A stretch of 40,704 nt of DNA from Bacteroidota bacterium (GTDB taxonomy: Bacteria > Bacteroidota > Bacteroidia > UKL13-3), in the NCBI GenBank assembly GCA_947453415.1, contig CANGGG010000023.1, positions 1-40,704 of the forward strand. The letters are read 5' to 3'. How positions within the stretch are numbered: position 1 is the first letter of the stretch; each line of letters starts with the position of its first letter. This document shows, in pieces, positions 9,228 to 25,444 of this stretch. Position numbers and translations under genes: made by a program. A model generated the notes under the pieces. The model saw only the letters and a program-made list of their open reading frames with translations, was not told where the DNA came from and did not search any database.

Positions 9228-9235
9228 CAAAAATA
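9228..9235 (-). promoter_or_regulatory. Putative -7 element for the DUF1223 gene
   Basis: TATTTTTG on the minus strand, 20 bases before the ATG. No convincing -33 TTG. Confidence 0.35.
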
Positions 9236-9391
9236 AATGATTGTTTGGTTTAAAAAAGGTATTACCTAAATTTAGAATGATTAAAATGAAAAATATTAGT
9301 TGCATTTAATAATTGTCAAACAAGAACAGTTTTTTTTGATTATTAGAAATTACTATAAAATAAAAGCTAATTATTTAAAGTGATTGAAAAA

Positions 9392-9427
9392 TAAAGGAAA
9401 TTAAATTCCACAATTTAATTTCCTTTA
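9392..9427 (-). terminator. 16-bp perfect hairpin in a divergent intergenic region
   Basis: 9392-9407 pairs perfectly with 9412-9427 around a CCAC tetraloop. On the minus strand it is followed by TTTTTC, giving it terminator form for antisense or divergent transcripts. On the plus strand the following bases are GCAAAAAA. It lies in the 290-bp gap between the DUF1223 gene and the aminotransferase, which otherwise shows nothing recognisable. Confidence 0.5.
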
Positions 9428-9497
9428 GCAAAAAACATTTTATTCACAATATTTTGAAAGGTTTGGAGATGTTAGGGTAATAATAGCATATTGCAGG

Positions 9498-10652
9498 ATG
9501 CAATTTAACGGTTCCATCAAATCAAAATTACCAAAATCCAATACTAGTATTTTTGCGGTAATGACAGCATTAGCTAACGAACACAATGCAATTAATTTAG
9601 CTCAAGGTTTTCCCGACTTTGATGTATCGCCAAAATTAATAGAATTGGTAAATAAATACATGAAATTGGGCATGAATCAATATGCACCAATGCCAGGTTT
9701 ATTAAGTCTGCGCGAAAAAATAGCTCAAAAAACTTACGATTTATATTCAGCCCAATATGATGCAAATTCTGAAATAACAATTGTTCCTGGAGCTACACAC
9801 GGAATATATGCAATTATGAGCGCCATGATTAGAGAAGGTGACGAGGTAATAGTTATTGAACCTTGTTATGATAGTTATGTACCAGCCATTGAATTAAATG
9901 GTGGTCGTGCAATTCATGTAGAGTTAAAATTACCGGAATTTAAAATTGACTGGAATGAAGTAAAGAAATTAGTGAATTTTAAAACTAAAATGATTTTAAT
10001 TAATACGCCTCACAATCCTACAGGAAGTATATTAAATGCGCAGGATTTACAAAAACTGGAAAAAATAGTTCGTGGAACAGATGTTATTATTTGTAGTGAT
10101 GAAGTTTATGAACACATGATTTATGACATGGTTGAACATCAAAGTGTGGCACGTTTTCCTGCATTGGCCGAACGTAGTTTTATTGTTTCATCATTTGGAA
10201 AAACTTATAGTACCACTGGTTGGAAAATGGGATATATATTAGCTCCAGCAAATTTAACAGTAGAGTTAAGAAAAGTACATCAGTTTATGGCTTTTAGTAC
10301 CAATACACCTATTCAATATGCCATGTCTGAGTTTATGGATGACAAAAGTATTTACTTAGAACTATCGGGTTTTTACCAGGAAAAAAGAGATTATTTCAGG
10401 AAACTTTTAAAAGGTTCAAATTTCAAATTATCACATTGCCAAGGGAGTTATTTTCAGTTATTGAATTATTCAAAAATAACACAAGAAAAAGATACAGATT
10501 TTGCTATAAGATTAACAAAAGTAAATAAAATAGCAAGTATTCCTGTTTCTGTATTTTATAGTAAAAAAACAGATAATCAATTATTACGTTTTTGCTTTGC
10601 AAAACAAAATGAAACATTGGAAAAAGCGGCAGAAAAACTAATGAAAATTTAA
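9498..10652 (+). CDS. Class I aminotransferase, methionine/glutamine transaminase-like (YbdL type)
   Basis: A 384-residue PLP enzyme of fold type I. NLAQGFPDFDVSPKL (33-47) and QYAPMPGLLSLR (61-72) are typical of the YbdL/kynurenine aminotransferase (glutamine transaminase K) branch. PHNPTG has N173, SDEVYEHM has D201, and SSFGKTYSTTGWKMGY holds the PLP-binding K235. The C-terminal LLRFCFAK supplies the substrate-carboxylate Arg. This branch transaminates methionine, aromatic amino acids and glutamine. The omega-amidase gene 15 bp downstream supports glutamine as donor or product partner, as in methionine salvage. Exact substrate is inferred. Confidence 0.92.
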   Translation: MQFNGSIKSKLPKSNTSIFAVMTALANEHNAINLAQGFPDFDVSPKLIELVNKYMKLGMNQYAPMPGLLSLREKIAQKTYDLYSAQYDANSEITIVPGATHGIYAIMSAMIREGDEVIVIEPCYDSYVPAIELNGGRAIHVELKLPEFKIDWNEVKKLVNFKTKMILINTPHNPTGSILNAQDLQKLEKIVRGTDVIICSDEVYEHMIYDMVEHQSVARFPALAERSFIVSSFGKTYSTTGWKMGYILAPANLTVELRKVHQFMAFSTNTPIQYAMSEFMDDKSIYLELSGFYQEKRDYFRKLLKGSNFKLSHCQGSYFQLLNYSKITQEKDTDFAIRLTKVNKIASIPVSVFYSKKTDNQLLRFCFAKQNETLEKAAEKLMKI

Positions 10653-10667
10653 AGCAAAATAACAAAA

Positions 10668-11459
10668 ATGACTACAAGCGATTCGTTAAAAATTACATTG
10701 ATTCAAAGCAACTTGTTTTGGGAAGATAAAATTACAAATATTAAACAATTTACTAATAGAATATTTGATATAACGGAACAAACAGACTTATTTGTTTTAC
10801 CCGAAATGTTTTCAACAGGATATACCATGAACAGCGAAAAATTAGCTGAAACCATGGATGGATTTACAGTTACTTGGATGAAAGAAGTGGCAATGGTAAA
10901 AAATGCTGCTATTTGTGGAAGTTTAATTATAACTGAAAACAATGAAATATTTAATCGGTTTTTGTTTGTAGAACCAAATGGAAATGTTCAATTTTATAAC
11001 AAAGCACATTTGTTCAGAATGGCTGAAGAAAACAAGTACTATACTGCTGGAAATAATAGAATTATTATTGAATATAAAGGGTGGAAAATTGCCCCATTTG
11101 TTTGTTATGATTTAAGGTTTCCGGTTTGGTTAAAACGCTGCGAAAATTTTGAATATGATTTGATGATTTTAGTAGCAAGTTGGCCTGAAAAACGTGTTAC
11201 ACATTGGCAAGTATTAACACAAGCAAGAGCTATAGAAAATCAATGTTATGTGGTAGCAGTAAATAGAGTTGGCGAAGACGGAAAACAAATAAATTATAAT
11301 GGTCAAAGTGCTTTATTTAATCCACAAGGAAAAATACTAAATGAGTTAACGCATGAAGAATTTGAAACAACATTTACCATTTATCTACCAGAATTAAAGA
11401 CATATAGAAAAGCATTTCCAGTTAACTTAGATGATGATAATTTTGAAATAAATTTTTAA
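10668..11459 (+). CDS. Omega-amidase, nitrilase superfamily (YafV-like)
   Basis: A 263-residue carbon-nitrogen hydrolase. The catalytic Glu-Lys-Cys triad is E46 in VLPEMFSTGY, K112 in YNKAHLF and C146 in VCYDLRFPVW. Overall length and the MFSTGYTM and ILVASWPEKR blocks fit YafV/NIT2 omega-amidases, which hydrolyse alpha-ketoglutaramate to 2-oxoglutarate and ammonia. It follows the aminotransferase by 15 bp. The pair would remove the glutamine-derived keto acid, pulling transamination toward methionine or phenylalanine formation. Cytosolic; no signal peptide. Confidence 0.9.
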   Translation: MTTSDSLKITLIQSNLFWEDKITNIKQFTNRIFDITEQTDLFVLPEMFSTGYTMNSEKLAETMDGFTVTWMKEVAMVKNAAICGSLIITENNEIFNRFLFVEPNGNVQFYNKAHLFRMAEENKYYTAGNNRIIIEYKGWKIAPFVCYDLRFPVWLKRCENFEYDLMILVASWPEKRVTHWQVLTQARAIENQCYVVAVNRVGEDGKQINYNGQSALFNPQGKILNELTHEEFETTFTIYLPELKTYRKAFPVNLDDDNFEINF

Positions 11460-11522
11460 AAATATCTAAGCAACTTTTTATAAATAAAAACAATCAGAAG
11501 AAATAAAAAAAACAAATAAAAA

Positions 11523-12653
11523 ATGAATAAAATTATTGTATTTACACTTTGTATTTTGTTGCAAGGAAATATTGCATTTGCACAGAAAAATAAAAAAAAT
11601 AAAAACACTCCAATTAAAGAAGAAGTTACAGCTCCAGATAAATATTCCAAATTTGTATTGGAAGAAAAAGAATTCGATTTTGGCGTAGTTAATGAAAATG
11701 GAGGGTTATTAATTCATAATTTTTCAATAAAAAACACTGGAAATATTCCATTAATTATAAAAGATATTCAGCCTGAATGTGGATGTACGCGCAGTGAGTG
11801 GACAACCCAACCAATTGCACCGGGTGCGGTAGGAAATATTAGGGCTATTTTTAATCCCGCAGGAAGACCCGGTGTTTTCAGAAAAGCAATTACTGTGTTT
11901 ACAAATACAGAAGTAGAAAAATCGCAAGTATTTGTAAAAGGAAACGTTGCTCCTTCAAAATATCAATTTGGTTCAACTTATACCTTTCAATATGGTTTTA
12001 CTGCAGTAAATAACAATACTTTTAACTTCAATGTATTAAACACCAAAAGTGATAGTGATTACTTAAAATTATATAATTTAAGCAATAAAGTTATAAAAAT
12101 AACACGCATAGAAACGCCACCAAATATAGAAGTAAAAGGTGCTTACTATGAAATGATACCAAATACTGATATTGAATTAAAAATTAAATTCACACCAAAA
12201 AGCAAAATGGATTTTGGCGATTTTAGTCAAGAAGTAAAAATATACACTAACGATGATTCATTTCCTGTGAAATTAATTTATGTAAACGCTAAAATAAAGG
12301 AAGATTTTTCATACCTAACACCTAAAGAATTAAAGAAATCACCCAAATTTACCATTGATAGGTTATCGCATCATTATGGAGATATTGGTTATAAAGACAG
12401 TTCAATTACCTATTTTACACTTACTAATAAAGGCAAAACAGATTTAATCATTAGAAAAGTAAAACGTTCATGTAATTGTGTAAATGTAGATTTAGAAAGC
12501 ATGGTTATAAAACCAAAGCAAAAAGTAAAAATGAAAGTAGATTACACTTCGTTTAATGTGGTGGGATTAGACATTAGAGGTATTAAATTAATAACAAATG
12601 ATCCAAATAATCAAGAAGTAAATATTTCAATAAGTGCAAATATTGTAAGATAA
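11523..12653 (+). CDS. Exported protein with two DUF1573 domains
   Basis: A 376-residue protein with a signal peptide (cleavage near AFA-Q, residue 20). An N-terminal DUF1573 domain (about 43-140) has KEFDFGVV, a KNTGNIPL strand and the PECGCT motif (C86/C88). A middle beta domain follows, and a second DUF1573-like domain (about 280-375) has HHYGDIGY, LTNKGKTDLIIRKV and SCNCV (C317/C319). The folds are Ig/ASH-like. DUF1573 proteins abound in Bacteroidota envelopes but have no settled activity. It precedes htrA by 15 bp on the same strand, so a periplasmic role with that protease is possible. Confidence 0.85.
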   Translation: MNKIIVFTLCILLQGNIAFAQKNKKNKNTPIKEEVTAPDKYSKFVLEEKEFDFGVVNENGGLLIHNFSIKNTGNIPLIIKDIQPECGCTRSEWTTQPIAPGAVGNIRAIFNPAGRPGVFRKAITVFTNTEVEKSQVFVKGNVAPSKYQFGSTYTFQYGFTAVNNNTFNFNVLNTKSDSDYLKLYNLSNKVIKITRIETPPNIEVKGAYYEMIPNTDIELKIKFTPKSKMDFGDFSQEVKIYTNDDSFPVKLIYVNAKIKEDFSYLTPKELKKSPKFTIDRLSHHYGDIGYKDSSITYFTLTNKGKTDLIIRKVKRSCNCVNVDLESMVIKPKQKVKMKVDYTSFNVVGLDIRGIKLITNDPNNQEVNISISANIVR

Positions 12654-12668
12654 AAAAGTTAAAAGTAT

Positions 12669-14108
12669 ATGTTAAAAAAAATAGTATTCGTAGCAGTAAG
12701 CTTCATTAGTGGAATTGCCGGTTCGTATGTGTTTTATAAAATGTATTCACCAGCTATATTAGTTCAAGATTTCAGTAAAAAAAACGATAATAATTTTGAA
12801 TCGGTGAACTATAAGGGTAGTTCAATTACCAGTTTAGATTTTGTAAAAGCATCGGCATCATCTACTCAAAGCGTAGTTTTTATAAAAACATTAAGCAATC
12901 AACAAAACTATGTAGATCCACAATTTGATTTCTTTAGTCAGTTTGATTTCTTTGGTCAACGTGGACCTGTGGCAAGCTCTGGAAGTGGAGTTATTATAAC
13001 TGAAGATGGTTATATAGTTACCAATTACCATGTAATAAAAGGTGCAAATACTATAGAAGTTATTTTAAATAATAAAAAACAATCGTACCAAGCCAAATTA
13101 ATTGGCAGTGATCCTTCTACCGATATTGCTGTTTTAAAAATAGAAGCCAAGGCATTGCCACATATTATTTTTGGCAATAGCGATGATGTAAAAATTGGAG
13201 AATGGGTTTTGGCCGTTGGTAATCCATTTAACCTTACATCCACAGTTACTGCGGGAATAGTTAGTGCTAAAGGAAGGAACATCAATATTGTAAATAATCA
13301 GTTTCCAATTGAATCATTTATACAAACCGATGCGGCTATTAATCCAGGAAATAGTGGTGGTGCATTGGTTGATTTAGAAGGAAGGTTAGTAGGAATAAAT
13401 ACTGCTATTTCTAGTCAAACCGGTAGTTATATTGGTTATGGATTTGCCATTCCTTCCAATATTGTTTCAAAAATTATCAAAGATTTGATTGATTTTAAAG
13501 AAGTACAACGTGGTTACACCGGAATGGACATTACTGATATTGATTCACGTTTGGCACAAAAACTAAATATTAGCAATAATTTAGGAGTTTATGTAAGTTC
13601 TGTATTGGCCGAAAGTCCTGCTGATAAATCTGGCATTAGAACTGGCGATGTAATTGTAAAAATTAATGATAAAGAGATTGATAGCAAAGCTATTTTTGAC
13701 GAGTACATGGCTTATATGCGTCCGGGAGATAAAGCCAAGTTTACTTATTTAAGAAATGGAAAAGAAACCGAGACAACTTTTAATTTAATTAATAAAGAAG
13801 GAAACACCGCCATACTTAGAAAAGGAACCATCACATCTGAGTCATTAGGTGCCGATTTCCAAACATTGCCTAAGCTAGAAAAAGATAAATTAGGAATAAA
13901 AAACGGTATAAAAATTTACAATATAAAGAATGGTAAAATAGCCAATATTGGTTTGAGTGAAGGATTTATATTGATAGCTTTAAACAAAAAACAATACGAA
14001 AAACCAGAAGAATTAATTGCCGATTTTGAACAACTACGAGGACAAGTAGTAATGGAAGGAATTATGCCAAATGGAAGCCGAATGGTGTTTAGTACTTATG
14101 TTTATTAG
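12669..14108 (+). CDS. HtrA/DegP-family periplasmic serine protease
   Basis: A 479-residue protease-chaperone for misfolded envelope proteins. One N-terminal membrane/signal segment (about 5-23) is followed by a linker. The trypsin domain has catalytic H121 (TNYHVIKGA), D152 (STDIAVLKI) and S229 (NPGNSGGAL). A first PDZ domain spans about 280-370 (VLAESPADKSGIRTGDVI) and a shorter second PDZ-like domain follows to the end. A phenylalanine-rich internal duplication, FDFFSQFDFFGQ (87-97), lies in the LA-loop region. Last gene of a plus-strand run that ends at a strong terminator. Confidence 0.95.
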   Translation: MLKKIVFVAVSFISGIAGSYVFYKMYSPAILVQDFSKKNDNNFESVNYKGSSITSLDFVKASASSTQSVVFIKTLSNQQNYVDPQFDFFSQFDFFGQRGPVASSGSGVIITEDGYIVTNYHVIKGANTIEVILNNKKQSYQAKLIGSDPSTDIAVLKIEAKALPHIIFGNSDDVKIGEWVLAVGNPFNLTSTVTAGIVSAKGRNINIVNNQFPIESFIQTDAAINPGNSGGALVDLEGRLVGINTAISSQTGSYIGYGFAIPSNIVSKIIKDLIDFKEVQRGYTGMDITDIDSRLAQKLNISNNLGVYVSSVLAESPADKSGIRTGDVIVKINDKEIDSKAIFDEYMAYMRPGDKAKFTYLRNGKETETTFNLINKEGNTAILRKGTITSESLGADFQTLPKLEKDKLGIKNGIKIYNIKNGKIANIGLSEGFILIALNKKQYEKPEELIADFEQLRGQVVMEGIMPNGSRMVFSTYVY

Positions 14109-14145
14109 AAGATTACAAAGATTAGAAATTTTTGTATTTAATATT

Positions 14146-14180
14146 GAAAAAATCCGTAACAGTTTGTAACGGATTTTTTC
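14146..14180. terminator. Intrinsic terminator after htrA
   Basis: A 12-bp perfect stem (14146-14157 with 14169-14180), ATCCGT core, with an A6 run on the left and a T6 run on the right. It closes the 9.5-14.1 kb plus-strand run. Confidence 0.85.
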
Positions 14181-14359
14181 TTCAAACAATTATTTATTCT
14201 CACCAACCGAATTCGAGCTATCAGCAAACTCAATAATAATTGATAATTTTTTTTTATTCAAAATCCCTTTAGTTGGAACAAAAGTGGATTGTTAGAGATA
14301 CAAACCACGGACAAAAATTATCCATTAAACTTCAACCTATTATTTTGGGCGAATAAATC

Positions 14360-14367
14360 TATATTTG
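14360..14367 (+). promoter_or_regulatory. Putative -7 element for the flippase gene
   Basis: TATATTTG, a perfect TAnnTTTG, lies 8 bases before the ATG at 14376. No TTG at -33. It argues for the 14376 start over an upstream one at 14289. Confidence 0.45.
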
Positions 14368-14375
14368 CGCAGCCA

Positions 14376-15815
14376 ATGAGAAAAACCTTTGTATTAAATC
14401 TAATAATAATGATGGGTGTTAACCTACTCATTAAACCATTTTGGATTTTGGGAATTGATAGAGCCATACAAAACCGTTTGGGTTTTGATGCCTACGGGCA
14501 ATATTATATTCTATTCAATTTTGTGTTATTACTTTCGGTTTTATTAGATTTTGGAATTGCCAATTACACCACCTCTAATTTAGCCAAAAACGCCAATTTA
14601 ATAGAAAAACAGTTTTCAGCATTATTCACCATTAAATTACTTTTTTCAGCGTTATACATTGCGTTAACGCTTGTTCTTGCTGCAGTTTTAGGCTATGACC
14701 AAAGTGTTTGGTATTTAATTCTAATGCTTGCTATCAATCAAGTAATTTCTTTTTTTCATATTTATTTCAGGAGCAATGTAAGCGGATTACAACTCTTTAA
14801 AACCGATTCTATTTTATCTGTTTTAGATAGGTTATTGATGATTTTATTTTGCTCTATTCTATTATTTACAAATCTTTTTGAATTGAATATAACTAACTTT
14901 ATTTATGCGCAAACACTTGGTTATTTAATAAGTGCGGCCATTTCCTTTTCATTTATTCGAACTAAAATATCTAAAGTTAAACTTATTTTTGACAAAGAAA
15001 TTCTTTGGGATATATACAAAAAAACTGCACCTTATGCTTTGCTGGCTTTGTTAATGACACTTTACACTAGAGTTGATAATATTTTGATTGGCAAACTTTT
15101 ACCTGATGGCGATTATCATGGAGGAATATATGCTTTAGGTTACCGGTTGCTAGAAGCAGCAAACATGATGGCAGTTTTGGTTGCCATGCTTTTACTCCCT
15201 ATTTTTTCAAAAATGATAGCAGAAAGACAAAAGTTAGAACCTTTAATAAATACAGCTTTAGGAATACTTGTTGCACCAAGTTTAATATTTGCAATTGCTT
15301 GTTTTTTCTTTCAAAGTGAAATATTAGTAATGCTCTCACCAAAGGCAAATAACTATGCTACACAAGTTTTTGGCTGGATTATTTTGTGTTTTATTCCACT
15401 TTGTTTTATGTATATTTTTGGTTCATTGCTTACAGCAAATGGTTCAATGAAAATATTAAATATTTTAGCATTGATCGCATTGATTACAAATATTGGTTTA
15501 AACATTTGGTTAATTCCAAAATACCAAGCATTGGGTGCTGCTTATGCTGCAATAATTACACAAACATTTATTGGAATTACTAATTGCTTTTTTGCTTATA
15601 AAGTTTTAAAAATGTCATTTGATAAAATTGTATTTTTAAAACTATTATTACTTTTAGTTTTTATAATAGTTACAGCTATTTTTTGCAAAACATATACTAT
15701 TTCATTATTTGTTTCGTTAGGAATACTTAGCATTTTAGGAATGCTATTAATTTTTGTTTTTAAACTGTTGGATATAAAGCAGCTAGGTAGTTTAACAAAA
15801 AGCAAATTCAATTAA
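14376..15815 (+). CDS. Polysaccharide flippase (Wzx-like, MOP superfamily)
   Basis: A 479-residue inner-membrane protein with about 12-14 hydrophobic segments. LIKPFWILGIDRAIQNRLG and FDAYGQYYILFNFV near the N-terminus, and YTRVDNILIGKLLPDGDYHGG mid-protein, are characteristic of polysaccharide-export members of the MATE/MOP superfamily. It should flip lipid-linked oligosaccharides to the periplasm. Start taken at MRKTFVLNL; the frame is open 29 codons further upstream but that stretch contains the putative promoter. It opens a three-gene set with a chain-length regulator and a ligase/polymerase. Confidence 0.88.
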   Translation: MRKTFVLNLIIMMGVNLLIKPFWILGIDRAIQNRLGFDAYGQYYILFNFVLLLSVLLDFGIANYTTSNLAKNANLIEKQFSALFTIKLLFSALYIALTLVLAAVLGYDQSVWYLILMLAINQVISFFHIYFRSNVSGLQLFKTDSILSVLDRLLMILFCSILLFTNLFELNITNFIYAQTLGYLISAAISFSFIRTKISKVKLIFDKEILWDIYKKTAPYALLALLMTLYTRVDNILIGKLLPDGDYHGGIYALGYRLLEAANMMAVLVAMLLLPIFSKMIAERQKLEPLINTALGILVAPSLIFAIACFFFQSEILVMLSPKANNYATQVFGWIILCFIPLCFMYIFGSLLTANGSMKILNILALIALITNIGLNIWLIPKYQALGAAYAAIITQTFIGITNCFFAYKVLKMSFDKIVFLKLLLLLVFIIVTAIFCKTYTISLFVSLGILSILGMLLIFVFKLLDIKQLGSLTKSKFN

Positions 15816-15840
15816 AACTTTACACCTAAATATATTTTTA

Positions 15841-15848
15841 TATTTTTG
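15841..15848 (+). promoter_or_regulatory. Putative -7 element before the chain-length regulator gene
   Basis: TATTTTTG matches TAnnTTTG, 17 bases before the ATG at 15866. A -33 TTG is not seen. Confidence 0.35.
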
Positions 15849-15865
15849 ACCTAATTATTTATAAA

Positions 15866-16870
15866 ATGACACAAGATAAAAGAACGTACTACTTTGAATT
15901 AGTTGATGTAGTAAAATTTTTAATAAAATATAAAAAGCCACTAAGCATTATATCAATTGGAGCTGGAATAGCAGCAATCATTTTTTCAGGACCTTGGTTT
16001 ATAACTCCATTGTATAAATCAACAGCTATATTTTATCCTTCCACCAATAATTCAATTTCAAGTGCATTACTTTCTGATACCAGAGTAAAAGCAAAAGATC
16101 CATTAGAATTTGGGGAACAAGCAACCGCTCAGCAGTTTATTCAAATGTTAGAAAGTGACAATTTAAAGAACAGAGTAATTACCAATTTTAAATTGCGTGA
16201 GCATTATAAAATAGATGAGAACGATGGGGAGAAAAACTTTAAAATGGGAAATCTATACAAAAAGCACATCAGTGTAAAAAAAACTGCTTATGCTTCTATT
16301 GAAGTAAATGTGTTAGATGAAATACCTGAAAAAGCGGCAGAAATTGCCAATGGGGTAGTTTTACTTTTAGACAGTGTAAAAACGGATATTCAAAAACGAA
16401 TTGCACTTCAAGCATTAGCAATTATTGAACAACAATATAAAAATAAGGAAGCTGAAGTAAATAATATCAAACAAACCATGCGAGACTTAGGTGCTAAAGG
16501 CGTTTACAGCTTTGAAGAACAATCTAAAGCCATTACAGAATTAGCAGGAAAAGGCGGAAACCAAGCTTATATTAATAAGCAACAAGCAAGCTTAGCTCAG
16601 TATGGTAGCGAGGCTATTTCATCGCAAGAAACGTTGGTTTTAGAGTTAGAAAAATTAAGTGAATTACGTAAAAAATTAGAACAAGCAAATGTAGATGTGA
16701 GTGCTAATTTAAGTAATGTATTTATCCTTCAGCAGGCTACCACTTCTGAGAAAAAAGCATATCCAGTTAGATGGCTTATTGTAGCAGTTTCCATATTCGG
16801 TTCATTTGTTTTGGGCTGCATTGTATTGCTATTTACCGAAAAAATAAAACAAATAAATATCAACGCATAA
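15866..16870 (+). CDS. Wzz-type polysaccharide chain-length/co-polymerase protein
   Basis: A 334-residue protein with the classic topology: a short cytosolic N-terminus, TM1 (about 25-46), a periplasmic domain starting TPLYKSTAIFYPS, long coiled helices (about 185-290), and TM2 (about 302-325) preceded by KKAYPVRWLI. There is no C-terminal tyrosine-kinase domain. It would set polymer length or bridge the polymerase to export. It sits 50 bp after the flippase and 3 bp before the ligase/polymerase gene. Confidence 0.85.
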   Translation: MTQDKRTYYFELVDVVKFLIKYKKPLSIISIGAGIAAIIFSGPWFITPLYKSTAIFYPSTNNSISSALLSDTRVKAKDPLEFGEQATAQQFIQMLESDNLKNRVITNFKLREHYKIDENDGEKNFKMGNLYKKHISVKKTAYASIEVNVLDEIPEKAAEIANGVVLLLDSVKTDIQKRIALQALAIIEQQYKNKEAEVNNIKQTMRDLGAKGVYSFEEQSKAITELAGKGGNQAYINKQQASLAQYGSEAISSQETLVLELEKLSELRKKLEQANVDVSANLSNVFILQQATTSEKKAYPVRWLIVAVSIFGSFVLGCIVLLFTEKIKQININA

Positions 16871-16873
16871 GTT

Positions 16874-18319
16874 TTGGAATTAAAACAAAGTCAGTATTGG
16901 TTTTATAGCATTGGTATTGGGTTTATTTTACTTAATATTATTGCTTTATGGCTTGGTTTTGAATGGTTAAGTGTTTTACCTTTTGTTGTTTTAGTATTAG
17001 TTGCAGCAGTTTTTCGCTCCGATTTACTAATATTATTTCTCTCATTTATCATTCCTCTTTCCATTGAATTTGATAATATTGGCGGTGGATTAGGCATAAG
17101 TTTACCCGATGAACCCTTACTAATATTATTAACCGCCACGGTACTTTTTAAATTTATTATTGACAGAAATTACGACTACAGAATCTTTAAACAGCCCATT
17201 GCTATTGCCATTTTAATTAACCTTGCTTGGCTTATTTTTGATACTTTTTTTAGCCAAATGGTATTGGTTTCAGTAAAATTTGTTTTAGCAAGAATTTGGT
17301 ATGTAACTACTTTTTATTTTTTAACTGTTGTATTATTTAAAAATATAAAAAATATCCATGCATTTTTATGGTTACATATTGGAGGTTTAATCATTGTTGT
17401 ATTTTACACTTTTGTGCAACATGCAAAATACGATTTTGCTCAAATTGTATCTTTTACCATTAATCAACCTTTTTATATTGGACATGGAGTTTATGCTGCT
17501 GCTTTGGCCTTTTTTATTCCTTATTTATTGCTAAATATAATTTACGCTTTCCGACTTAAAATTCCAACTTGGCTGCTTATAATTACTGCATTTACATTAT
17601 TAGTTTTTGTATTAGGCGTAATATTAAGTTATACCCGAGCTGCATGGATTAGTTTGGCCGGAGCTACTGTTTTGCTTTGTTTAATTTGGTTAAATATAAG
17701 ATTCAAAGTTTTGATCATAGCACTTTCAACTTTGGTATTTTTGATTTTTATTAACAGTGATGAAATTATTTACAGGCTTTCATTGAACAAACAAAACAGT
17801 TCTGAAGGATTTGATAGACATTTGGAATCCGTTAGCAATATTAACAATGATGTTTCAAATTTAGAGCGTGTAAATAGGTATGTGGCAGCTTTAAACATGA
17901 ATAAAGAAAGACCTATTCTAGGTTTTGGGCCAGGAACTTATTCTTTCACATATGGTGTTTACCAAGAGCCAGAATATGAAACTGCAATTACTACATACTT
18001 TGGCGATAATGGCACATGCCATAGCGAATATTTAGGACCATTGGCCGAAAGCGGTTGGTTAGGATTACTTACTTTTTTAGCTATTATCTATTTAGCTTAC
18101 CGAGATGGCTATCAGATTATTTTTAAATCAAAAAACACGGAAGTTAAAATATTAGCTATTTCCATTTTAGTTGGATTAAGTACATTCCTGATTCATGGTT
18201 TTTTAAACAACTACAGCGAAACTGATAAAATAGCCATTATTCTTTGGGGCAGCTTTGCAATAATTACTGCATTAAAGCAATATCATTTTGATGAAGAAAT
18301 AAGCTCATCAACAAAATAA
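16874..18319 (+). CDS. O-antigen ligase/polymerase family membrane protein
   Basis: A 481-residue polytopic protein of the Wzy/WaaL family. Twelve or so membrane segments frame a large periplasmic loop. LSYTRAAWISLAG and RPILGFGPGTYSF are the usual conserved blocks, and CHSEYLGPLAESGWLG holds the conserved His-Glu region. It either polymerises lipid-linked repeat units or ligates finished polymer; sequence alone does not decide. No ATG is available near the N-terminus, so translation should start at TTG 16874, 3 bp after the preceding stop, giving MELKQSQYWFYS. Confidence 0.85.
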   Translation: MELKQSQYWFYSIGIGFILLNIIALWLGFEWLSVLPFVVLVLVAAVFRSDLLILFLSFIIPLSIEFDNIGGGLGISLPDEPLLILLTATVLFKFIIDRNYDYRIFKQPIAIAILINLAWLIFDTFFSQMVLVSVKFVLARIWYVTTFYFLTVVLFKNIKNIHAFLWLHIGGLIIVVFYTFVQHAKYDFAQIVSFTINQPFYIGHGVYAAALAFFIPYLLLNIIYAFRLKIPTWLLIITAFTLLVFVLGVILSYTRAAWISLAGATVLLCLIWLNIRFKVLIIALSTLVFLIFINSDEIIYRLSLNKQNSSEGFDRHLESVSNINNDVSNLERVNRYVAALNMNKERPILGFGPGTYSFTYGVYQEPEYETAITTYFGDNGTCHSEYLGPLAESGWLGLLTFLAIIYLAYRDGYQIIFKSKNTEVKILAISILVGLSTFLIHGFLNNYSETDKIAIILWGSFAIITALKQYHFDEEISSSTK

Positions 18320-18342
18320 TATTACTTTTACAATATTTAAAT

Positions 18343-20427
18343 TTACTTCAAACTTCTATCTAACCAATCAAAGAAAACACGTTGCCAAAGCACACTGTTT
18401 TGAGGTTTGGTTACCCAATGGTTTTCGTCAGGAAAATATAAAAATCTACTAGGTACGCCTTTTAATTGCGCAGCTGTAAAAGCTTCCATTCCTTGTCCTA
18501 GCGGTACTCTAAAATCTTTTTCGTTATGAATTACTAACATGGGCGAATCCCAATTTTTTACAAATTTATGAGGTGATGCATCAAAGTTATTTGGGTGTTC
18601 GGTTTGACTCCAATATGGACCTTTATTATCGTTATTAGCAAAGTACATTTCCTCGGTGGTTCCATACCAACTTTCCATGTTGAACATGCCACAATGAGCT
18701 ATAAATGTTTTAAAACGTTTGTTATGGTTTCCTGCTAACCAATAAACTGAATATCCGCCAAAGCTTGCCCCTACTGCACCTAGCTTTTCTTTATTTACAT
18801 ATGGTTCATTGCTAATATCGTCAATGGCGCTTAAATAATCTTTCATACATTGTCCACCATAATCACCCGTAATGGCATCGTTCCATTCACTTCCGTGGCC
18901 TGGCATTCCGCGCCTATTTGGCGCAATAACAATATAACCATTTGCAGCCATTAATTGAAAATTCCAGCGATAACTAAAAAATTGCGAAAGCGCACTTTGA
19001 GGTCCACCTTGACAATACAATAAGGTTGGATATTTTTTTGTAGCATCAAAATTTGGCGGATAAATAACCCAACTTAACAAATCTTTTCCATCGGTAGTTT
19101 TGGTGATTCGCTTTTCCACTTTACCCATTTGGGTTTGGTTTAATATTACTTGATTGGTAAAAGTAATTTGCGTTTCTGTTTTAGTTTTTAAGTCAATTAC
19201 AAAAAGTTCTGTAGGTAGCGAAATACTCATTTTACCAATTACGAAACTTGTTTTTTTATCATTGGTAATGGCACAAAATGAACCATAATCGGTTTCAGTA
19301 TTCGATATTTTAGTAATGTTTTTATTACCTTTTTTTACTATAAAACTATATTCAAATAATTGTTTAGTTCCCTTAAATGGTGCAGTAAAATAAATGCTTT
19401 TGTTATCGTTACTCCATTGAAAATTTTCAATTGGATAATCAAAATTACTTTTGCCCGTAATTTCTTTAATTAATAAGTCTTTGTTTAACAAATCCATGCA
19501 AACCAATCTATTCAAATCACTTTCATTTCCTTTGCCTTGCATACTTAGCCAAAGAATTTTATTTCCATCGGGTGAAAACTGAGGATTTCTGTCATATCCT
19601 TCGTTCAATGAAGAAATATTTGAAGTTTGTTTTGAAATCAAATCATATAAATAAATATCGCTATTGGTAGAAATTGCTTCAGCAGTTCCTGTTAATTTTC
19701 TGCTATCATAAGCTAATTTATTACCTTCAGGATTCCAATTAAATTGATCATCATCGCCATTCGGTTGAAGCGGACAATCAAATTTTTCATTCTTCATGAT
19801 ATCAATTGCATCACCATTGATTTGACCATTTGAATAAGGTACAATAAACAAATGACTGTATGCGTAATCGTGCCATGAATCCCAATGACGGTAAAACAAT
19901 CCGTCAATAATTCTTGCATTGCATTTATCTAAATCTGGATAAATTTCTTTTACTTCTTTGTCTAATTTTACATCGGCAGTAAAGGCTATGTTGTTCATTT
20001 TAGGCGAGTATTTATAACCACTAATTCCTCCATAAAAATCTGAAACTTCAACTTTATTACTTCCATCAATTTTCATTTCCCATAACTGAACATCACCTGA
20101 TTTTCCACTTAAAAAACTAATTTTTTGTCCGTCAGGTGTAAAACGAGCACTGGTGGCATTCATTTCAGCATTGGTAATTGCTATTTTATTGCCGCCATTG
20201 ATATCACATTTATATATAATATTAGTGCCTTTATTGGCTTTTACATCATAATTTTTAACACCAAAAATTACTGTTTTACCATCTGGAGAAACCTGTTGAT
20301 CAGAAACTCTGCCTAATTGCCACAATTTTTCTATGCTTAAATTTTGCTGCGCAAATGAAGTTGAAAAATTGATACTAAATAAAAAACAAATGGCAAATAA
20401 TTGATTAAAAAATGAAGTCTTTTTCAT
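18343..20427 (-). CDS. S9 family (prolyl oligopeptidase-like) exported peptidase
   Basis: A 694-residue exported enzyme. The signal peptide ends near SFAQ. An N-terminal seven-bladed beta-propeller has repeated blocks such as VSPDGKTVIF, FTPDGQKISF and FSPDGNKILW. The alpha/beta-hydrolase domain has S555 in GASFGGYSV, D638 in NEKDFRVP and H670 in DENHWV. This is the dipeptidyl/acylaminoacyl-peptidase branch that trims oligopeptides in the periplasm. It lies downstream of the carotenoid genes on the same strand (48-bp gap) but has no obvious link to pigment synthesis. Confidence 0.93.
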   Translation of the reverse strand: MKKTSFFNQLFAICFLFSINFSTSFAQQNLSIEKLWQLGRVSDQQVSPDGKTVIFGVKNYDVKANKGTNIIYKCDINGGNKIAITNAEMNATSARFTPDGQKISFLSGKSGDVQLWEMKIDGSNKVEVSDFYGGISGYKYSPKMNNIAFTADVKLDKEVKEIYPDLDKCNARIIDGLFYRHWDSWHDYAYSHLFIVPYSNGQINGDAIDIMKNEKFDCPLQPNGDDDQFNWNPEGNKLAYDSRKLTGTAEAISTNSDIYLYDLISKQTSNISSLNEGYDRNPQFSPDGNKILWLSMQGKGNESDLNRLVCMDLLNKDLLIKEITGKSNFDYPIENFQWSNDNKSIYFTAPFKGTKQLFEYSFIVKKGNKNITKISNTETDYGSFCAITNDKKTSFVIGKMSISLPTELFVIDLKTKTETQITFTNQVILNQTQMGKVEKRITKTTDGKDLLSWVIYPPNFDATKKYPTLLYCQGGPQSALSQFFSYRWNFQLMAANGYIVIAPNRRGMPGHGSEWNDAITGDYGGQCMKDYLSAIDDISNEPYVNKEKLGAVGASFGGYSVYWLAGNHNKRFKTFIAHCGMFNMESWYGTTEEMYFANNDNKGPYWSQTEHPNNFDASPHKFVKNWDSPMLVIHNEKDFRVPLGQGMEAFTAAQLKGVPSRFLYFPDENHWVTKPQNSVLWQRVFFDWLDRSLK

Positions 20428-20475
20428 AAAATATTTTTTTTACGAATAACGAGAAAGTAGCTTGGATATAAAAAA

Positions 20476-21156
20476 TTATTTTTTGTTCAATAAATATTCC
20501 ATCACGGTAATTGGAATTAAAAGGCATGTGAATGCATAAATGGTATCTTCAATTGGAATAGTATAAATGCGCAAACCTATTATTTCATTGGTGTTGTAGC
20601 CAACTACAGGTTCAGGAGTTACAGCACCAGTAAGCACACCATTTACTAATAAAAATGGAATTAAATGAACAAAATAGGCCATCCAAAAATAAGCCATGTA
20701 CTGTTTTTTAAAATAGTACTGATGCAAAAGCAATAAAGCCAATGCCAATGTACAATTGACTAAAGTATAAGTTTTAGTGTTAAATAAAATACTAGCAACA
20801 ATAAGTAAAACAATGAAAGTATAATTGATTATTGATACAAATGGCAGGAAGAATTTATCAGAAAAATATGCTTTGATACATGCATAAATAAATACGCTTG
20901 CAAAAGGAACAACTATAAAAAAAAGCCATTCCTCAATTGGTAAATCATTGAATCGAAAAGGTAAAACATAATCGTTATTGAACCACCAAATTCCAGAACG
21001 AGTAAACCAACCATCCCATAAAATAAACAAAAATGCATTGATAAATATACCTATAAATAAAGGTTTAAACCATTTGTAAAAAGCTACTTTTTTATCGAAG
21101 CTTAAAGCAAATGGTCCAATAAAAGAACCTAACATTAACCAGGCATATAAACTCAT
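20476..21156 (-). CDS. crtYcd: Lycopene cyclase, fused CrtYc-CrtYd type
   Basis: A 226-residue membrane protein with about seven segments, composed of two homologous halves. The first has SGIWWFNNDYVLPFRFNDLP then IEEWLFFIVVPF. The second has PEPVVGYNTNEIIGLR then IYTIPIEDTIYAF. These are the paired signatures of the CrtYc and CrtYd subunits of actinobacterial and fungal-type cyclases, here fused in one chain. It closes ends of lycopene to beta rings without the FAD motif of CrtY/CrtL. Its ATG overlaps the crtZ stop by one base (TAATG), so the two are translationally coupled. Whether one or both ends are cyclised cannot be read here. Confidence 0.9.
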   Translation of the reverse strand: MSLYAWLMLGSFIGPFALSFDKKVAFYKWFKPLFIGIFINAFLFILWDGWFTRSGIWWFNNDYVLPFRFNDLPIEEWLFFIVVPFASVFIYACIKAYFSDKFFLPFVSIINYTFIVLLIVASILFNTKTYTLVNCTLALALLLLHQYYFKKQYMAYFWMAYFVHLIPFLLVNGVLTGAVTPEPVVGYNTNEIIGLRIYTIPIEDTIYAFTCLLIPITVMEYLLNKK

Positions 21157-21608
21157 TAGTTAGTTGAATTTGGGTTTTTCCAATATTTTAAAGGAACGAT
21201 TAACATTCCAAAGTTTTCGCCATCTTCTTTTCCTAAATATTTATGATGAATTTTATGCGCTCTGCGAATGGCTTTAACGTATCTATTATCTAAACGACTC
21301 CATATTTTAAAACGTTGATGTATGATAATTTCATGAATGATAAAATATGCAAAACCATATAACGAAATTCCAATCCCAATATATAATCTAAAATCTTGAT
21401 ACATTAATCCTGTTACATAACAATAAGCACTTGGAATGGCAAAAATCAAAAAAAACGAATCGTTCTTTTCAAAAAAACCAGGTTCTACTTGGTGATGATC
21501 TTTATGCAAATACCATAATAAACCATGCATTACAAACTTATGCGTAAACCAAGCCATGAACTCCATGAACCAAAACGTAACAAATACCACTGAAAAATTA
21601 AATAACAT
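21156..21608 (-). CDS. crtZ: Beta-carotene 3-hydroxylase CrtZ
   Basis: A 150-residue di-iron membrane hydroxylase. All His boxes are present: HKFVMH (H23, H28), HKDHH (H35, H38, H39), HEIIIH (H92, H97) and HKIHH (H118, H121, H122). It adds 3-OH to beta rings. Size and motifs match bacterial CrtZ. It is coupled to the lycopene cyclase through a TAATG overlap and lies downstream of cruF, with a small lipoprotein gene between. Confidence 0.93.
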   Translation of the reverse strand: MLFNFSVVFVTFWFMEFMAWFTHKFVMHGLLWYLHKDHHQVEPGFFEKNDSFFLIFAIPSAYCYVTGLMYQDFRLYIGIGISLYGFAYFIIHEIIIHQRFKIWSRLDNRYVKAIRRAHKIHHKYLGKEDGENFGMLIVPLKYWKNPNSTN

Positions 21609-21661
21609 ATATTTTTAAAAAGCTTTGCAATTATAAACAGATAAAAGGAAAAAAGTTTTTG

Positions 21662-22066
21662 TTAATTTTGTTTAGTAAAATTTAAAGTGTTCCCTCTTTC
21701 TAAATAAATTAAAGATAAATTCTTTGAAGTCAAATAATCGATTGAATAATTAAATTCAATATTGGCTTTTAAATCTATGGTTTTCAGTAATGATTCTTTA
21801 TTTTCAATTACATAACTAAGTGTATCTATTATTTCATTATCATAAATATCAACTAGAAATTCTTTTGTAAAAATCATTTTTGACTTCTTATCATCATTTG
21901 AAATCCAAGTACCAAGTATGTTTATTTTGATTAAATTTTCACTAATTACTTTAGCTTGTTTGCTTTCATCATTTGGTGTTTGAATATTATTTGGCTCATT
22001 TGTTTTTTGATTATTTGAACAGCTAAATAATAAAATTACTGAAGTTATTAATATTGAAATTTTCAT
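21662..22066 (-). CDS. Small lipoprotein of unknown function inside the carotenoid cluster
   Basis: A 134-residue protein with a lipoprotein signal (VILLFSC, Cys16), then a polar Asn/Lys-rich linker. The globular part begins INILGTWISNDDKKSKMIF and is all-beta in character, resembling small lipocalin-like lipoproteins of Bacteroidota (GTW motif). No pigment enzyme motif is present. It lies 53 bp before crtZ and 31 bp after cruF on the same strand. A lipocalin-like fold could bind lipids or pigment, but this is speculation. Confidence 0.7.
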   Translation of the reverse strand: MKISILITSVILLFSCSNNQKTNEPNNIQTPNDESKQAKVISENLIKINILGTWISNDDKKSKMIFTKEFLVDIYDNEIIDTLSYVIENKESLLKTIDLKANIEFNYSIDYLTSKNLSLIYLERGNTLNFTKQN

Positions 22067-22097
22067 TAATCAAATATATTTATTCTTAAAATAAAAT

Positions 22098-22742
22098 CTA
22101 ATACAAGCAATTCAAACCAACAAAAAAAGCCAATTGCAAACCATAAAGCCAAGGTGCTATTTTATTGGTTAAAGGTAATTCCAACTGATGATAAATAAAT
22201 ATAAATGCAAAAGAAAAAATATACCACGCAGTATAATTTTGAATGGGCACAACATTGTTTTTCCAATACCAAAAATCTAATTGTGGAGCAATGTTTTCAA
22301 TAAAAATATCAATAATGAGCATGAGTAATGCACCTATAGCTGCCTTTGCCATCATATGAACGTTTTTGTTTGGTAATATTTTATTTAAAACAATTTGACA
22401 AATATGCATAGAAACATAACAAAGCATTACCCAGTTTAAGCCAATAATTACAGGAACATCGGCTATTTTAAAACCAAGATTATTTCCATAAAAATATTGC
22501 CCAAAAATTCTTCCTGTGGTAACACCCAATAATTCTAAAATATAACCTGCTTGAAAAACACCTAATGTCCAAATCCAAAACATTGCATTTTTAGGCTGGT
22601 GAAAATAAAACAAAATGGCCGCACTAATCATCAAATTGATAGGTGTTAGTTTTATTAAATCAATTTTGAAAACTGTAGAACCAATAAGTCCAACAGCGTA
22701 TAAAATAATTAATATAATTATGGCAATATTTTCTTTTTTCAT
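22098..22742 (-). CDS. cruF: CruF-type carotenoid 1',2'-hydratase
   Basis: A 214-residue polytopic protein. The family blocks are FGQYFYGNNLGFKIADVPVI followed by GLNWVMLCY, and IDIFIENIAPQLDFWYWKNN ending in VVPIQNYTAWYIFSF. These match the carotenoid biosynthesis protein family containing CruF, which hydrates the free psi end of gamma-carotene-type carotenoids to a tertiary 1'-OH. It is preceded by crtD, whose product normally acts on the 1'-hydroxy product; that pairing strengthens the call. A palindromic repeat separates the two genes. Confidence 0.82.
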   Translation of the reverse strand: MKKENIAIIILIILYAVGLIGSTVFKIDLIKLTPINLMISAAILFYFHQPKNAMFWIWTLGVFQAGYILELLGVTTGRIFGQYFYGNNLGFKIADVPVIIGLNWVMLCYVSMHICQIVLNKILPNKNVHMMAKAAIGALLMLIIDIFIENIAPQLDFWYWKNNVVPIQNYTAWYIFSFAFIFIYHQLELPLTNKIAPWLYGLQLAFFVGLNCLY

Positions 22743-22774
22743 ATCAGTTTACTTGTTTTTTTATTCAAAGTTCG

Positions 22775-22816
22775 TTTCAACAAGCTCAACGACCGCGGGC
22801 ATTGAGCTTGTTGAAA
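22775..22816. repeat. Palindromic repeat with 15-bp perfect arms
   Basis: TTTCAACAAGCTCAA (22775-22789) pairs with 22802-22816. The 12-base loop contains CCGCGG. The GC content is well above its surroundings. It lies between crtD and cruF. The CAACAAGCTCAA arm looks like a dispersed Bacteroidota intergenic repeat. Confidence 0.75.
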
Positions 22817-22821
22817 TGCAA

Positions 22822-24300
22822 TTACTTTCCATAATCCTCTTTAATCAAATTTCCAACAATTTTAGCCGAATTCAAACACAATGGAATTCCTCCACCAGGA
22901 TGAACTGAGCCGCCACAAAAGTACAAACCTTTTATGGTAGAACTAAAATTTTTATGTCTTAAAAATGCCGCAAACCTATTATTACTTGCATTTCCATATA
23001 AGGCACCCAAATGACTGCTAGTTTTAGATTCAATACTTCTTGGATCTAAAATGGATTCACTGATTATTAGTTCGGAAATATTTACCTTCAAAATCCTGGT
23101 TAATTTATCAATGATATTTTTTCGAGATTCAATAATTAATTCATCCCAATTTTGCCCTTGATTATTGGGTGTATTTATCATAACAAACCAGTTTTCACAG
23201 CCTGCTGGAGCATCGTCAGTTTTGTATTTTGATGTAATGTTTATATAAATTGTTGGGTCATTATAAATGGTTTTTTTCTCAAAAATATGCTTGAATTCTG
23301 CTTCATAATTTTCAGTAAAAAAAATATTATGTAAATCTAATTCTATAAATTTTTTATTTATTCCCCAATAAAAAATCAATGCTGATGACGACTTTTCTTG
23401 TTTTAAAATATTTTCAGGATGAGGTATGTTAGGCAATAATTTTTTATAAGTTGGGTAAATATCCATGTTTGAAACTACCAAATCAGCTTTATAAAACAAC
23501 TCCCCTACTATTACACCTTTAATTTGTTTATTATTTTCATCCAAAACTATTTCAGAAACCTTTTTATTGAACTCAAAATTAACCCCTAAATCAACAGCCA
23601 ATTGATAAATAATTTCGCTGATTTGGTGCATGCCATTTTTAGGAAAAAAAGTACCAATATTACTTTCCAAATGTGGAATCATATTCAGTAAAGCTGGCGA
23701 TTGGTATGGATTGCTGCCATTATAAGTTGCAAATCGGTTAAAATATTGAACCAATCTTTTATCGGTAAAAATTTGCTCGTTTTCATGGTTCATGGTATTG
23801 AACAAATTTAATTTCGGAATGCTGAAAATTCCTTTGAGCGTAGCTAAATTCAAAAAGTTTTTTAATTTATGCAAACTACTTTCAATAAAAATAGGCACAG
23901 TTGTTTTATACCTAAATTCAGCTGTTTGCAAATAATTAAAAAACGGCTTTACATCAGTCATTCCAAGTTTTTCTTGTAACTCAGAAGTCATTTTTTGGGC
24001 GTTATGAAATGAGGTAAATCGGGTACCATCTTCATAAAAATAATTACATGATTTTTCTAATTGTTGGAATTCAAATTTATACTTGTTTTGCTTTGCAATA
24101 TCAAACAAATCTAAAACCAATTGAGGCAATGTAAATAAAGATGGGCCTGCATCGAATCTAAAACCATTTTGATTAAATTCAGTTAATTTTCCACCAAAAT
24201 AATTGTTGGCTTCTAAAACGGTAACATCAAAACCCATGGCTTGTAAACGAACCGCACTAGCTAATCCCGCTATTCCCGAACCAATTATTATTAATTTCAT
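22822..24300 (-). CDS. crtD: 1-hydroxycarotenoid 3,4-desaturase (CrtD), CrtI-family
   Basis: A 492-residue FAD-dependent desaturase. The Rossmann motif is IIGSGIAGLASAVRLQAMGF (5-24). RFDAGPSLFTLP, NRFATYNGSNPYQSPALL, SHLGALYGNASNNRFAAFLR and LYFCGGSVHPGGGIPLCL follow. The GPSLFT start and the ALYGNASNNR block match Bacteroidota CrtD better than phytoene desaturase CrtI, which usually has MGPSW/YW and a different C-terminal lead. Adjacent cruF supports it. It would introduce the 3',4' double bond after hydration. A CrtI assignment remains possible. A promoter motif lies at 24318-24325. Confidence 0.83.
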   Translation of the reverse strand: MKLIIIGSGIAGLASAVRLQAMGFDVTVLEANNYFGGKLTEFNQNGFRFDAGPSLFTLPQLVLDLFDIAKQNKYKFEFQQLEKSCNYFYEDGTRFTSFHNAQKMTSELQEKLGMTDVKPFFNYLQTAEFRYKTTVPIFIESSLHKLKNFLNLATLKGIFSIPKLNLFNTMNHENEQIFTDKRLVQYFNRFATYNGSNPYQSPALLNMIPHLESNIGTFFPKNGMHQISEIIYQLAVDLGVNFEFNKKVSEIVLDENNKQIKGVIVGELFYKADLVVSNMDIYPTYKKLLPNIPHPENILKQEKSSSALIFYWGINKKFIELDLHNIFFTENYEAEFKHIFEKKTIYNDPTIYINITSKYKTDDAPAGCENWFVMINTPNNQGQNWDELIIESRKNIIDKLTRILKVNISELIISESILDPRSIESKTSSHLGALYGNASNNRFAAFLRHKNFSSTIKGLYFCGGSVHPGGGIPLCLNSAKIVGNLIKEDYGK

Positions 24301-24317
24301 ACTTGTTTTTATAACAG

Positions 24318-24325
24318 CAAATTTA
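24318..24325 (-). promoter_or_regulatory. Likely promoter of the carotenoid gene run (-7 element)
   Basis: TAAATTTG on the minus strand lies 17 bases before the crtD ATG. A TTG (24347-24349) is 21 bases upstream of it, close to the usual 19-20 spacing. Confidence 0.55.
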
Positions 24326-24397
24326 GCATAGGATTTTATTTGTTTTCAACAATAAAAAAAAATTAAAAATACACTTCCTCTCTTCTCTATTTTTTTG

Positions 24398-24404
24398 TAA
24401 TTTG
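24398..24404 (+). promoter_or_regulatory. Weak -7-like element before thiL
   Basis: TAATTTG is one base shorter than TAnnTTTG and is followed by CGCCC and the ATG. The TTTGCG context is the same as at 14364-14369. Confidence 0.3.
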
Positions 24405-24409
24405 CGCCC

Positions 24410-25444
24410 ATGTTCAATGAACCTGAAACCACAAAACTAGAAGAAATTGGCGAGTTTGGCTTAATCAAACAATTAACTCAAAACATTGAATTAAAAAACA
24501 ATACCATAAAAGGGGTTGGTGATGATGCTGCAGTTTTAAATCCAACAGCAGGTAAAGTTACATTAGTTTCTACCGATTTATTATTGGAAGGCGTTCATTT
24601 TGATTTGAGTTATTTCCCTTTGAAACATTTGGGTTACAAAGCAGTAAGCGTAAACGCAAGTGATATATATGCCATGAACGGAACTCCAAAACAAATTACT
24701 GTTTCGGTTGGAATGAGCAGTAAATTCAGCGTGGAAGCCATTGCCGAAATATATGAAGGCATTGAATTAGCCTGCGAAAAATATAAAATTGATTTAGTGG
24801 GTGGCGATACAACCGCTAGTAAACAAGGTTTAATTATTAGTGTTACCGTTATTGGCGAAGCCAACGAAAATGAAGTAGTTTATAGAAATGGTGCACAAGA
24901 GTTTGATTTGATTTGTGTGAGTGGCGATTTGGGTGGTGCGTATGCTGGCTATCAATTGTTAGAGCGTGAAAAACGTGTGTTTATTGACAATCCGCAAATG
25001 CAACCAGACTTGGCAGGACATGATTATATTTTAGAACGTCAGTTAAAGCCAGAAGCCAGAAAAGATATTATTGAGTTTTTTAAAGCAATGGACATTCAAC
25101 CAACTTCCATGATTGATGTGAGTGATGGCTTAGCATCGGAATTGTTTCATATTGCAGAGCAATCAAAGGTTGGTGTTACCATTTACGAAGACAAAATTCC
25201 GATTGATGCTACCACTTATAATATGGCGCGCGAGTTAGATTTAGATCCAACTTTAACAGCCTTAAGCGGTGGCGAAGATTATGAATTGTTATTTACCATT
25301 AAACAAAGTGATTATAATAAATTAGAAAACCATCCTGATTTTACCGTGATTGGTCATGTAACAAAAGCTGAAGAAGGCTTGCACATGATTAGTAAAGGTG
25401 GACAAAAACATGCGTTAAAAGCGCAAGGTTGGAAAGCATTTTAA
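24410..25444 (+). CDS. thiL: Thiamine-monophosphate kinase ThiL
   Basis: A 344-residue AIR-synthase-fold kinase that converts thiamine monophosphate to the diphosphate with ATP. GVGDDAAVL (about 36-44), STDLLLEGVHF, LGYKAVSVNASDIYAMNG (metal-binding Asp residues) and VGGDTT are all present, as are IDVSDGLASEL and LSGGEDYELLF in the second domain. Full length. It is divergent from crtD. A hairpin begins immediately after its stop codon. Confidence 0.96.
   Translation: MFNEPETTKLEEIGEFGLIKQLTQNIELKNNTIKGVGDDAAVLNPTAGKVTLVSTDLLLEGVHFDLSYFPLKHLGYKAVSVNASDIYAMNGTPKQITVSVGMSSKFSVEAIAEIYEGIELACEKYKIDLVGGDTTASKQGLIISVTVIGEANENEVVYRNGAQEFDLICVSGDLGGAYAGYQLLEREKRVFIDNPQMQPDLAGHDYILERQLKPEARKDIIEFFKAMDIQPTSMIDVSDGLASELFHIAEQSKVGVTIYEDKIPIDATTYNMARELDLDPTLTALSGGEDYELLFTIKQSDYNKLENHPDFTVIGHVTKAEEGLHMISKGGQKHALKAQGWKAF

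Follow-up and report, generated by a model that had tools for sequence, protein, structure and literature searches.

Carotenoid gene clusters of the type described here are known, and the same kinds of genes have been published for Algoriphagus and Nonlabens. Among the flexixanthin genes of Algoriphagus sp. oki45 is a fused CrtYcd, with cruF replacing crtC; in Algoriphagus, flexixanthin goes with the gene kinds found here plus crtW, and oki45 and two of its relatives additionally carry a crtG homologue (PMC10784355). The myxol genes of Nonlabens spongiae and Flavobacterium P99-3 lie in one cluster and comprise CrtI, CrtB, CruF, CrtD and CrtZ together with a CrtY-type cyclase and crtA-OH (PMC11855829). 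Here we analyze a stretch of 40,704 nucleotides from a Bacteroidota bacterium (GenBank assembly GCA_947453415.1, contig CANGGG010000023.1), referred to below as the window, which contains the cluster crtD-cruF-crtZ-crtYcd. The window is contig C23 of the genome G000, which has a size of 2.89 Mb in 107 contigs. Like oki45, G000 has a fused CrtYcd and cruF, and it shares the CrtI, CrtB, CruF, CrtD and CrtZ kinds with N. spongiae and P99-3. In contrast to the latter, its cyclase in the cluster is CrtYcd and its crt genes lie in two places. Neither crtA-OH nor crtW was detected. The late-step genes of the cluster probably lead to a monocyclic 3,1'-dihydroxy carotenoid, with saproxanthin as the most likely candidate.

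The first-pass annotation of the window had placed crtD, cruF, crtZ and a fused crtYcd together at 20476-24300. All four were recovered as intact open reading frames (ORFs) at exactly this place on the minus strand, where they are transcribed in the order crtD, cruF, crtZ, crtYcd:

22822-24300, minus strand: crtD, 1-hydroxycarotenoid 3,4-desaturase, 492 amino acids (NF042421, 664 bits, cut-off 500; tree)
22098-22742, minus strand: cruF-like carotenoid 1,2-hydratase, 214 amino acids (PF04240, 91 bits, cut-off 25)
21156-21608, minus strand: crtZ, beta-ring 3-hydroxylase, 150 amino acids (PF04116, 46 bits, cut-off 31)
20476-21156, minus strand: crtYcd, fused two-domain lycopene beta-cyclase, 226 amino acids (PF18916, 121 bits; TIGR03462, 87 bits)

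These gene identities, as well as the presence of genes and, within the sensitivity of the searches, their absence, are read directly from the sequence. PF18916 (cut-off 27) matched two stretches of the one crtYcd ORF, which also lies above the TIGR03462 cut-off of 39.4; thus, two CrtYc/d domains are joined in a single chain, as had been proposed. The crtZ gene adjoins other crt genes, and histidine clusters are seen in its translation. It is 54% identical to a CrtZ homologue that is encoded between crtB and crtD in a Polaribacter locus (L050), and no NCBIfam model matches either of these two proteins. A second PF04116 match of the genome is located on contig C12.

A phylogeny against CrtI and CrtD had been suggested as a check on the 22822-24300 protein. 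Both the curated model NF042421 and the tree identify it as CrtD, and its assignment as CrtI was ruled out on these grounds. The tree comprised 40 proteins, taken from 26 of 80 crtD loci, from G000 and from Roseobacter, and a single branch with a support of 100/97 separated 28 CrtD rows, including the window protein, from 12 CrtI rows. Since the Bacteroidota rows took their labels from a BLAST comparison with the CrtD and CrtI of G000 itself, the curated model outweighs the tree in this assignment; only the two annotated Roseobacter rows, both with very long branches, are independently labelled. The 80 crtD loci are the best 80 of at least 546 stretches encoding relatives in a scan of named genome contigs. 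Some of them are short contigs, and from their names we take them to be Bacteroidota.

Of the 80 crtD loci, 12 show the complete order crtD-cruF-crtZ-crtYcd and 45 have a cruF homologue no more than 600 bases behind crtD, arguing against a chance assembly of the cluster. Furthermore, among the 30 best CrtYcd loci from the 64 family genomes used for comparison, a CrtZ frame adjoins crtYcd in 28, the sequence stops within about 150 bases of crtYcd in the remaining two, and cruF lies beside crtZ-crtYcd in most.

According to the first-pass annotation, crtE, crtB and crtI are absent. This is correct for the window but not for the genome, where the search that it had recommended found crtI and crtB side by side on contig C81, followed by a 167-amino-acid ORF and a photolyase-like ORF:

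L097:2861-7050 (contig C81), plus strand: crtI, crtB, 167-amino-acid ORF and photolyase-like ORF (photolyase by sequence reading)
L097:2861-4336 (contig C81), plus strand: crtI (NF058655, 723 bits, cut-off 640)

Two polyprenyl synthase genes, one on contig C49 and one on contig C13, are candidates for CrtE, so that all gene kinds leading to lycopene appear to be present in the genome, with CrtE as a candidate only. In the loci L017-L019, crtB-crtI and crtD-cruF-crtZ-crtYcd are found inside one 13.5-kb stretch. Thus, the two separate crt places in G000 reflect rearrangement rather than loss. The row of four ORFs on contig C81 was also noted as a possible light-response set.

From these genes we infer the following order of steps and product. 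CrtB and CrtI would make lycopene, one end of which would be closed to a beta ring by CrtYcd. CruF would add water at C-1',2' of the opposite end, CrtD would desaturate C-3',4' next to the hydrated end, and CrtZ would introduce the 3-OH group on the beta ring. The pathway is then expected to end at saproxanthin, as CrtA-OH and CrtW were not detected. CrtA-OH converts a saproxanthin-type carotenoid to myxol, and CrtW would yield flexixanthin. Saproxanthin is the best prediction because neither crtA-OH nor crtW was detected; myxol and flexixanthin were ruled out as products for the same reason. The earlier view of a late-step cluster for a 3,1'-dihydroxy carotenoid such as saproxanthin is therefore supported by the identity of CrtD, by crtI and crtB in the genome and by crtA-OH and crtW being undetected, whereas of the "saproxanthin/myxol-type" pigment named there only the saproxanthin part is retained, as a prediction.

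Because a proteobacterial CrtA query had no convincing counterpart among the reading frames at the 80 crtD loci, genomes were searched with the CrtA model NF045923. At E≤1, the model found no match in G000 or in four genomes of the same genus. In six of nine further Bacteroidota genomes it gave matches with E-values of at most 8.4e-54 (183-196 bits), which is below its cut-off of 300 bits and hence CrtA-like, as expected of CrtA-OH; two of the other three were silent and one matched at 0.5. A Roseobacter plasmid used as a positive control matched at 4.6e-113. A CrtW-like query, searched without a positive control, was silent at E≤1 in the genome. PF00487 matches four genes of the genome, none of which matches a CrtW model. 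The one on contig C1 has the size of a CrtW (243 amino acids) but was rejected as it matches a DesA-family desaturase model instead, below cut-off; one of the others is a weak DesB/DesA match, and the remaining two match nothing in NCBIfam. PF00487 is able to recognize CrtW-like proteins, as seen in Mucilaginibacter, where their best NCBIfam match is CrtW, below cut-off.

In E. coli, CrtY and CruF of N. spongiae led to 1'-hydroxy-gamma-carotene, and the further addition of CrtD led to 1'-hydroxytorulene (PMC11855829). The work published on N. spongiae and Algoriphagus is consistent with the chemistry proposed here. Several observations nevertheless weigh against saproxanthin as the product. 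The CruF-like protein stays below the cut-offs of three CruF equivalog models (TIGR03460, 75.9 against 154.7; NF045693, 46.4 against 400; NF041333, 40 against 300), which is why we keep the name CruF-like; its assignment is putative and relies on the superfamily level together with gene order. A CruF homologue was not detected in the available sequence at 30 of the 80 crtD loci, some of them short contigs, and at five more it lies further than 600 bases from crtD. CrtI exceeds the cut-off of NF058655 (723 against 640), a model whose title is "bifunctional phytoene desaturase/3,4-desaturase", so that an extra desaturation is possible and CrtI may overlap functionally with CrtD. Finally, the CrtY of N. 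spongiae alone makes mainly beta-carotene (PMC11855829), which indicates that cyclases in pathways of this type can go on to a second ring, although that enzyme is of the CrtY type and the cyclase of the window is a CrtYcd.

Part of these observations could be accommodated if CruF were inactive or had a different activity and the product were a 3-hydroxy carotenoid of the torulene or gamma-carotene type that lacks the hydration, as the low equivalog scores of CruF and the fit of CrtI to a bifunctional 3,4-desaturase would allow. We regard this as highly improbable, since the PF04240 score of CruF is far over the gathering score, cruF stays close behind crtD in the 45 loci mentioned above, and CrtD fits a 1-hydroxycarotenoid desaturase model, whose named substrate requires a hydratase. 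The main pigment could also be bicyclic, i.e. zeaxanthin, if CrtYcd and the CrtY part of a fusion protein encoded outside the window closed both ends and CrtZ hydroxylated both rings, leaving the products of CruF and CrtD as minor ones. The presence of two cyclases in one genome speaks for this, as do the beta-carotene formed mainly by N. spongiae CrtY alone and zeaxanthin as a second peak in N. spongiae cells (PMC11855829). A bicyclic main pigment is still unlikely in view of the retention of cruF, which follows crtD in the 45 loci mentioned above and accompanies crtZ-crtYcd in the majority of the family loci, and of the N. spongiae system itself, which shifts to a monocyclic product once CruF is present (PMC11855829); some bicyclic carotenoid is possible, because the genome has this second, CrtY-type cyclase. 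Alternatively, saproxanthin might be modified further, to another monocyclic carotenoid (2-hydroxylated by CrtG, a glycoside or an acyl ester), given that 2-hydroxyflexixanthin is known alongside a crtG homologue in Algoriphagus (PMC10784355). This appears quite improbable: among the 16 window proteins annotated with Pfam and NCBIfam models (7480-25444), no CrtG, no carotenoid glycosyl- or acyltransferase and no other carotenoid-modifying enzyme was recognized beyond the four crt genes (no genome-wide search for crtG or such transferases was made), and crtA-OH and crtW were undetected in the genome. Saproxanthin thus remains the preferred product.

The second cyclase of the genome belongs to a fusion protein whose gene lies next to a proteorhodopsin gene on contig C8:

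L096:4760-6799 (contig C8), minus strand: CrtY-type cyclase fused to Blh beta-carotene oxygenase, 679 amino acids (PF05834, residues 11-376; PF15461, residues 424-667)
L096:6873-7589 (contig C8), minus strand: proteorhodopsin gene (glycine G135)

In the fusion protein, the CrtY-type cyclase is N-terminal and the retinal-forming oxygenase Blh is C-terminal. TIGR03753 matches it with 137.9 bits (cut-off 95.25), and CrtY models stay below cut-off. The rhodopsin gene is located 73 bases upstream of the fusion gene on the same strand and is itself directly preceded by a gene for a cNMP-binding (Crp-like) regulator. The encoded rhodopsin is closest to the proteorhodopsins 9jov/9jou; a literature search for PDB 9jov found no paper.

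The fusion protein is matched in 36 of the 64 family genomes. In 31 of these the fusion itself is present, as one frame of 665-710 amino acids with both domains in 29 and in pieces in two (interrupted in G011, across two contigs in G060); the five further genomes hold partial or one-domain matches. An assembly error as the origin of the CrtY-Blh ORF was ruled out, as 29 of 33 loci, from 29 different genomes, contain the intact two-domain frame. One or two stops occur within the match in five of these 29 (G040, G043, G013, G061, G059), with the two-domain frame unbroken. Within the Blh part, the histidines H432, H485, H519, H592 and H660 do not vary among the 29 one-frame fusions. Where the contig allows, 30 of the 31 genomes have a rhodopsin no further than about 4 kb from the fusion (the exception being G013), and in 27 of these 30 the rhodopsin gene is located upstream of the fusion and on its strand. 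Identity to the G000 protein is 88.7-100% for the 29 other rhodopsins and only 33-92% for the two halves of the fusion. Retinal for the proteorhodopsin is probably made separately from the pigment, by CrtY-Blh encoded beside the rhodopsin gene. A full-text literature search, in which subscription papers were poorly covered, did not find a CrtY-Blh fusion.

CrtYcd is present in 59 of the 64 family genomes, namely 30 of the 31 fusion genomes (only fragments in two; none in G061) and 29 of the 33 others. Because it is this frequent in genomes lacking the fusion, the plain co-occurrence of the two is weak evidence, and the pigment cyclase is independent of the fusion. Close CrtYcd orthologues (at least 55% identity, two fragments counted) were found in 30 of 31 fusion genomes compared to 13 of 33 others, a contrast that is uncorrected for kinship and may be explained by kinship alone. 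Nearly every fusion genome carries two unrelated cyclases. Judged by gene content, the simplest reading would be a division of labour in which CrtYcd serves the pigment and CrtY-Blh serves retinal.

We also considered whether the rhodopsin could bind a carotenoid. Carotenoid sites in rhodopsins are recognized first of all by a glycine, Gly156 in XR and Gly153 in Kin4B8, and a tyrosine, Tyr207 in XR and Tyr204 in Kin4B8, is important as well (PMC12308411, PMC13093654). For Kin4B8, the native antenna pigment of which is unknown, 3-hydroxylated xanthophylls are the better antennas (PMC12308411). With positions counted along the printed chains, the glycine stands in W-G-F-L-S in XR and in W-G-V-L-S in Kin4B8. 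The G000 rhodopsin has W-G-V-I-S with G135, which is invariant in 30 of 30 family rhodopsins, as is Y187, the counterpart of Kin4B8 Y204. Y187 is not diagnostic, because green proteorhodopsin also has a tyrosine there, and by residue count Kin4B8 Tyr209 has no tyrosine counterpart in the G000 rhodopsin. G135 was equated with XR G156 and Kin4B8 G153 by the W-G-x-x-S motif and by aligning the protein with two rhodopsins encoded on plasmids, of which one is XR-like; in the HMMER alignment with green proteorhodopsin, a two-residue insertion lies beside G135, so that the facing residue is ambiguous. The pigment of the cluster might thus also act as a light-harvesting antenna for the proteorhodopsin. 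Tentatively, both parts can be read jointly for this Bacteroidota family: CrtY-Blh could channel lycopene to retinal, while the saproxanthin of the CrtYcd cluster could plug the G135 fenestration with its 3-hydroxylated beta ring and serve as antenna, a scheme that we consider possible rather than probable. No paper joining saproxanthin and a rhodopsin antenna was found in a literature search of titles and abstract openings.

One further ORF lies within the cluster, between cruF and crtZ:

21662-22066, minus strand: small ORF, 134 amino acids, lipoprotein-like start by eye

It has no Pfam or NCBIfam family match and is probably not a pathway enzyme. A 66-residue piece of it is 91% identical in the same-genus locus L129, and in L132-L135 the spacing between cruF and crtZ leaves no room for it. 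The cluster is flanked by genes for a Dpp5-like peptidase and a thiamine-phosphate kinase. The nine proteins encoded at 7480-18319 comprise a stress protein, a DUF1223 protein, an aminotransferase, a C-N hydrolase, a DUF1573 protein, a trypsin-like/PDZ protease, members of polysaccharide biosynthesis and O-antigen ligase families, and one protein without a match. In 13 of the 80 crtD loci (L011, L017-L026, L028, L029), a protein of about 815 amino acids, TonB-dependent receptor-like by eye, is encoded between crtI and crtD; it is absent near crtD in the window.

Overall, the cluster taken alone is one more Bacteroidota set for a monocyclic xanthophyll. Within its genome, it forms part of a testable system that combines a rhodopsin having the carotenoid-site glycine, a pathway predicted to end in a 3-hydroxy beta ring, of a kind demonstrated to act as antenna in Kin4B8, and a cyclase-oxygenase fusion. 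Rhodopsins that bind 3-hydroxy-xanthophylls are Kin4B8 and also KR1 (PMC12308411, PMC13093654). Kin4B8 and the G000 rhodopsin have in common the glycine in W-G-V-[LI]-S (G153/G135) and the tyrosine (Y204/Y187). However, Kin4B8 binds such xanthophylls, whereas the G000 protein is likened to it by sequence and has the proteorhodopsins 9jov/9jou as its nearest relatives. Fused carotenoid enzymes are likewise known from the crtIB fusion of Verrucomicrobiota, with CrtBY and CrtIBY named as earlier cases (PMC10284914), and from the protist Thecamonas trahens, the CrtI-CrtB-CrtYc/d-Blh protein of which also has Blh at its C-terminus (PMC10016063). In contrast to these, the fusion of the G000 type joins Blh to a CrtY-type (PF05834) cyclase, in bacteria and beside a rhodopsin gene, and it could separate the supply of retinal from that of the pigment.

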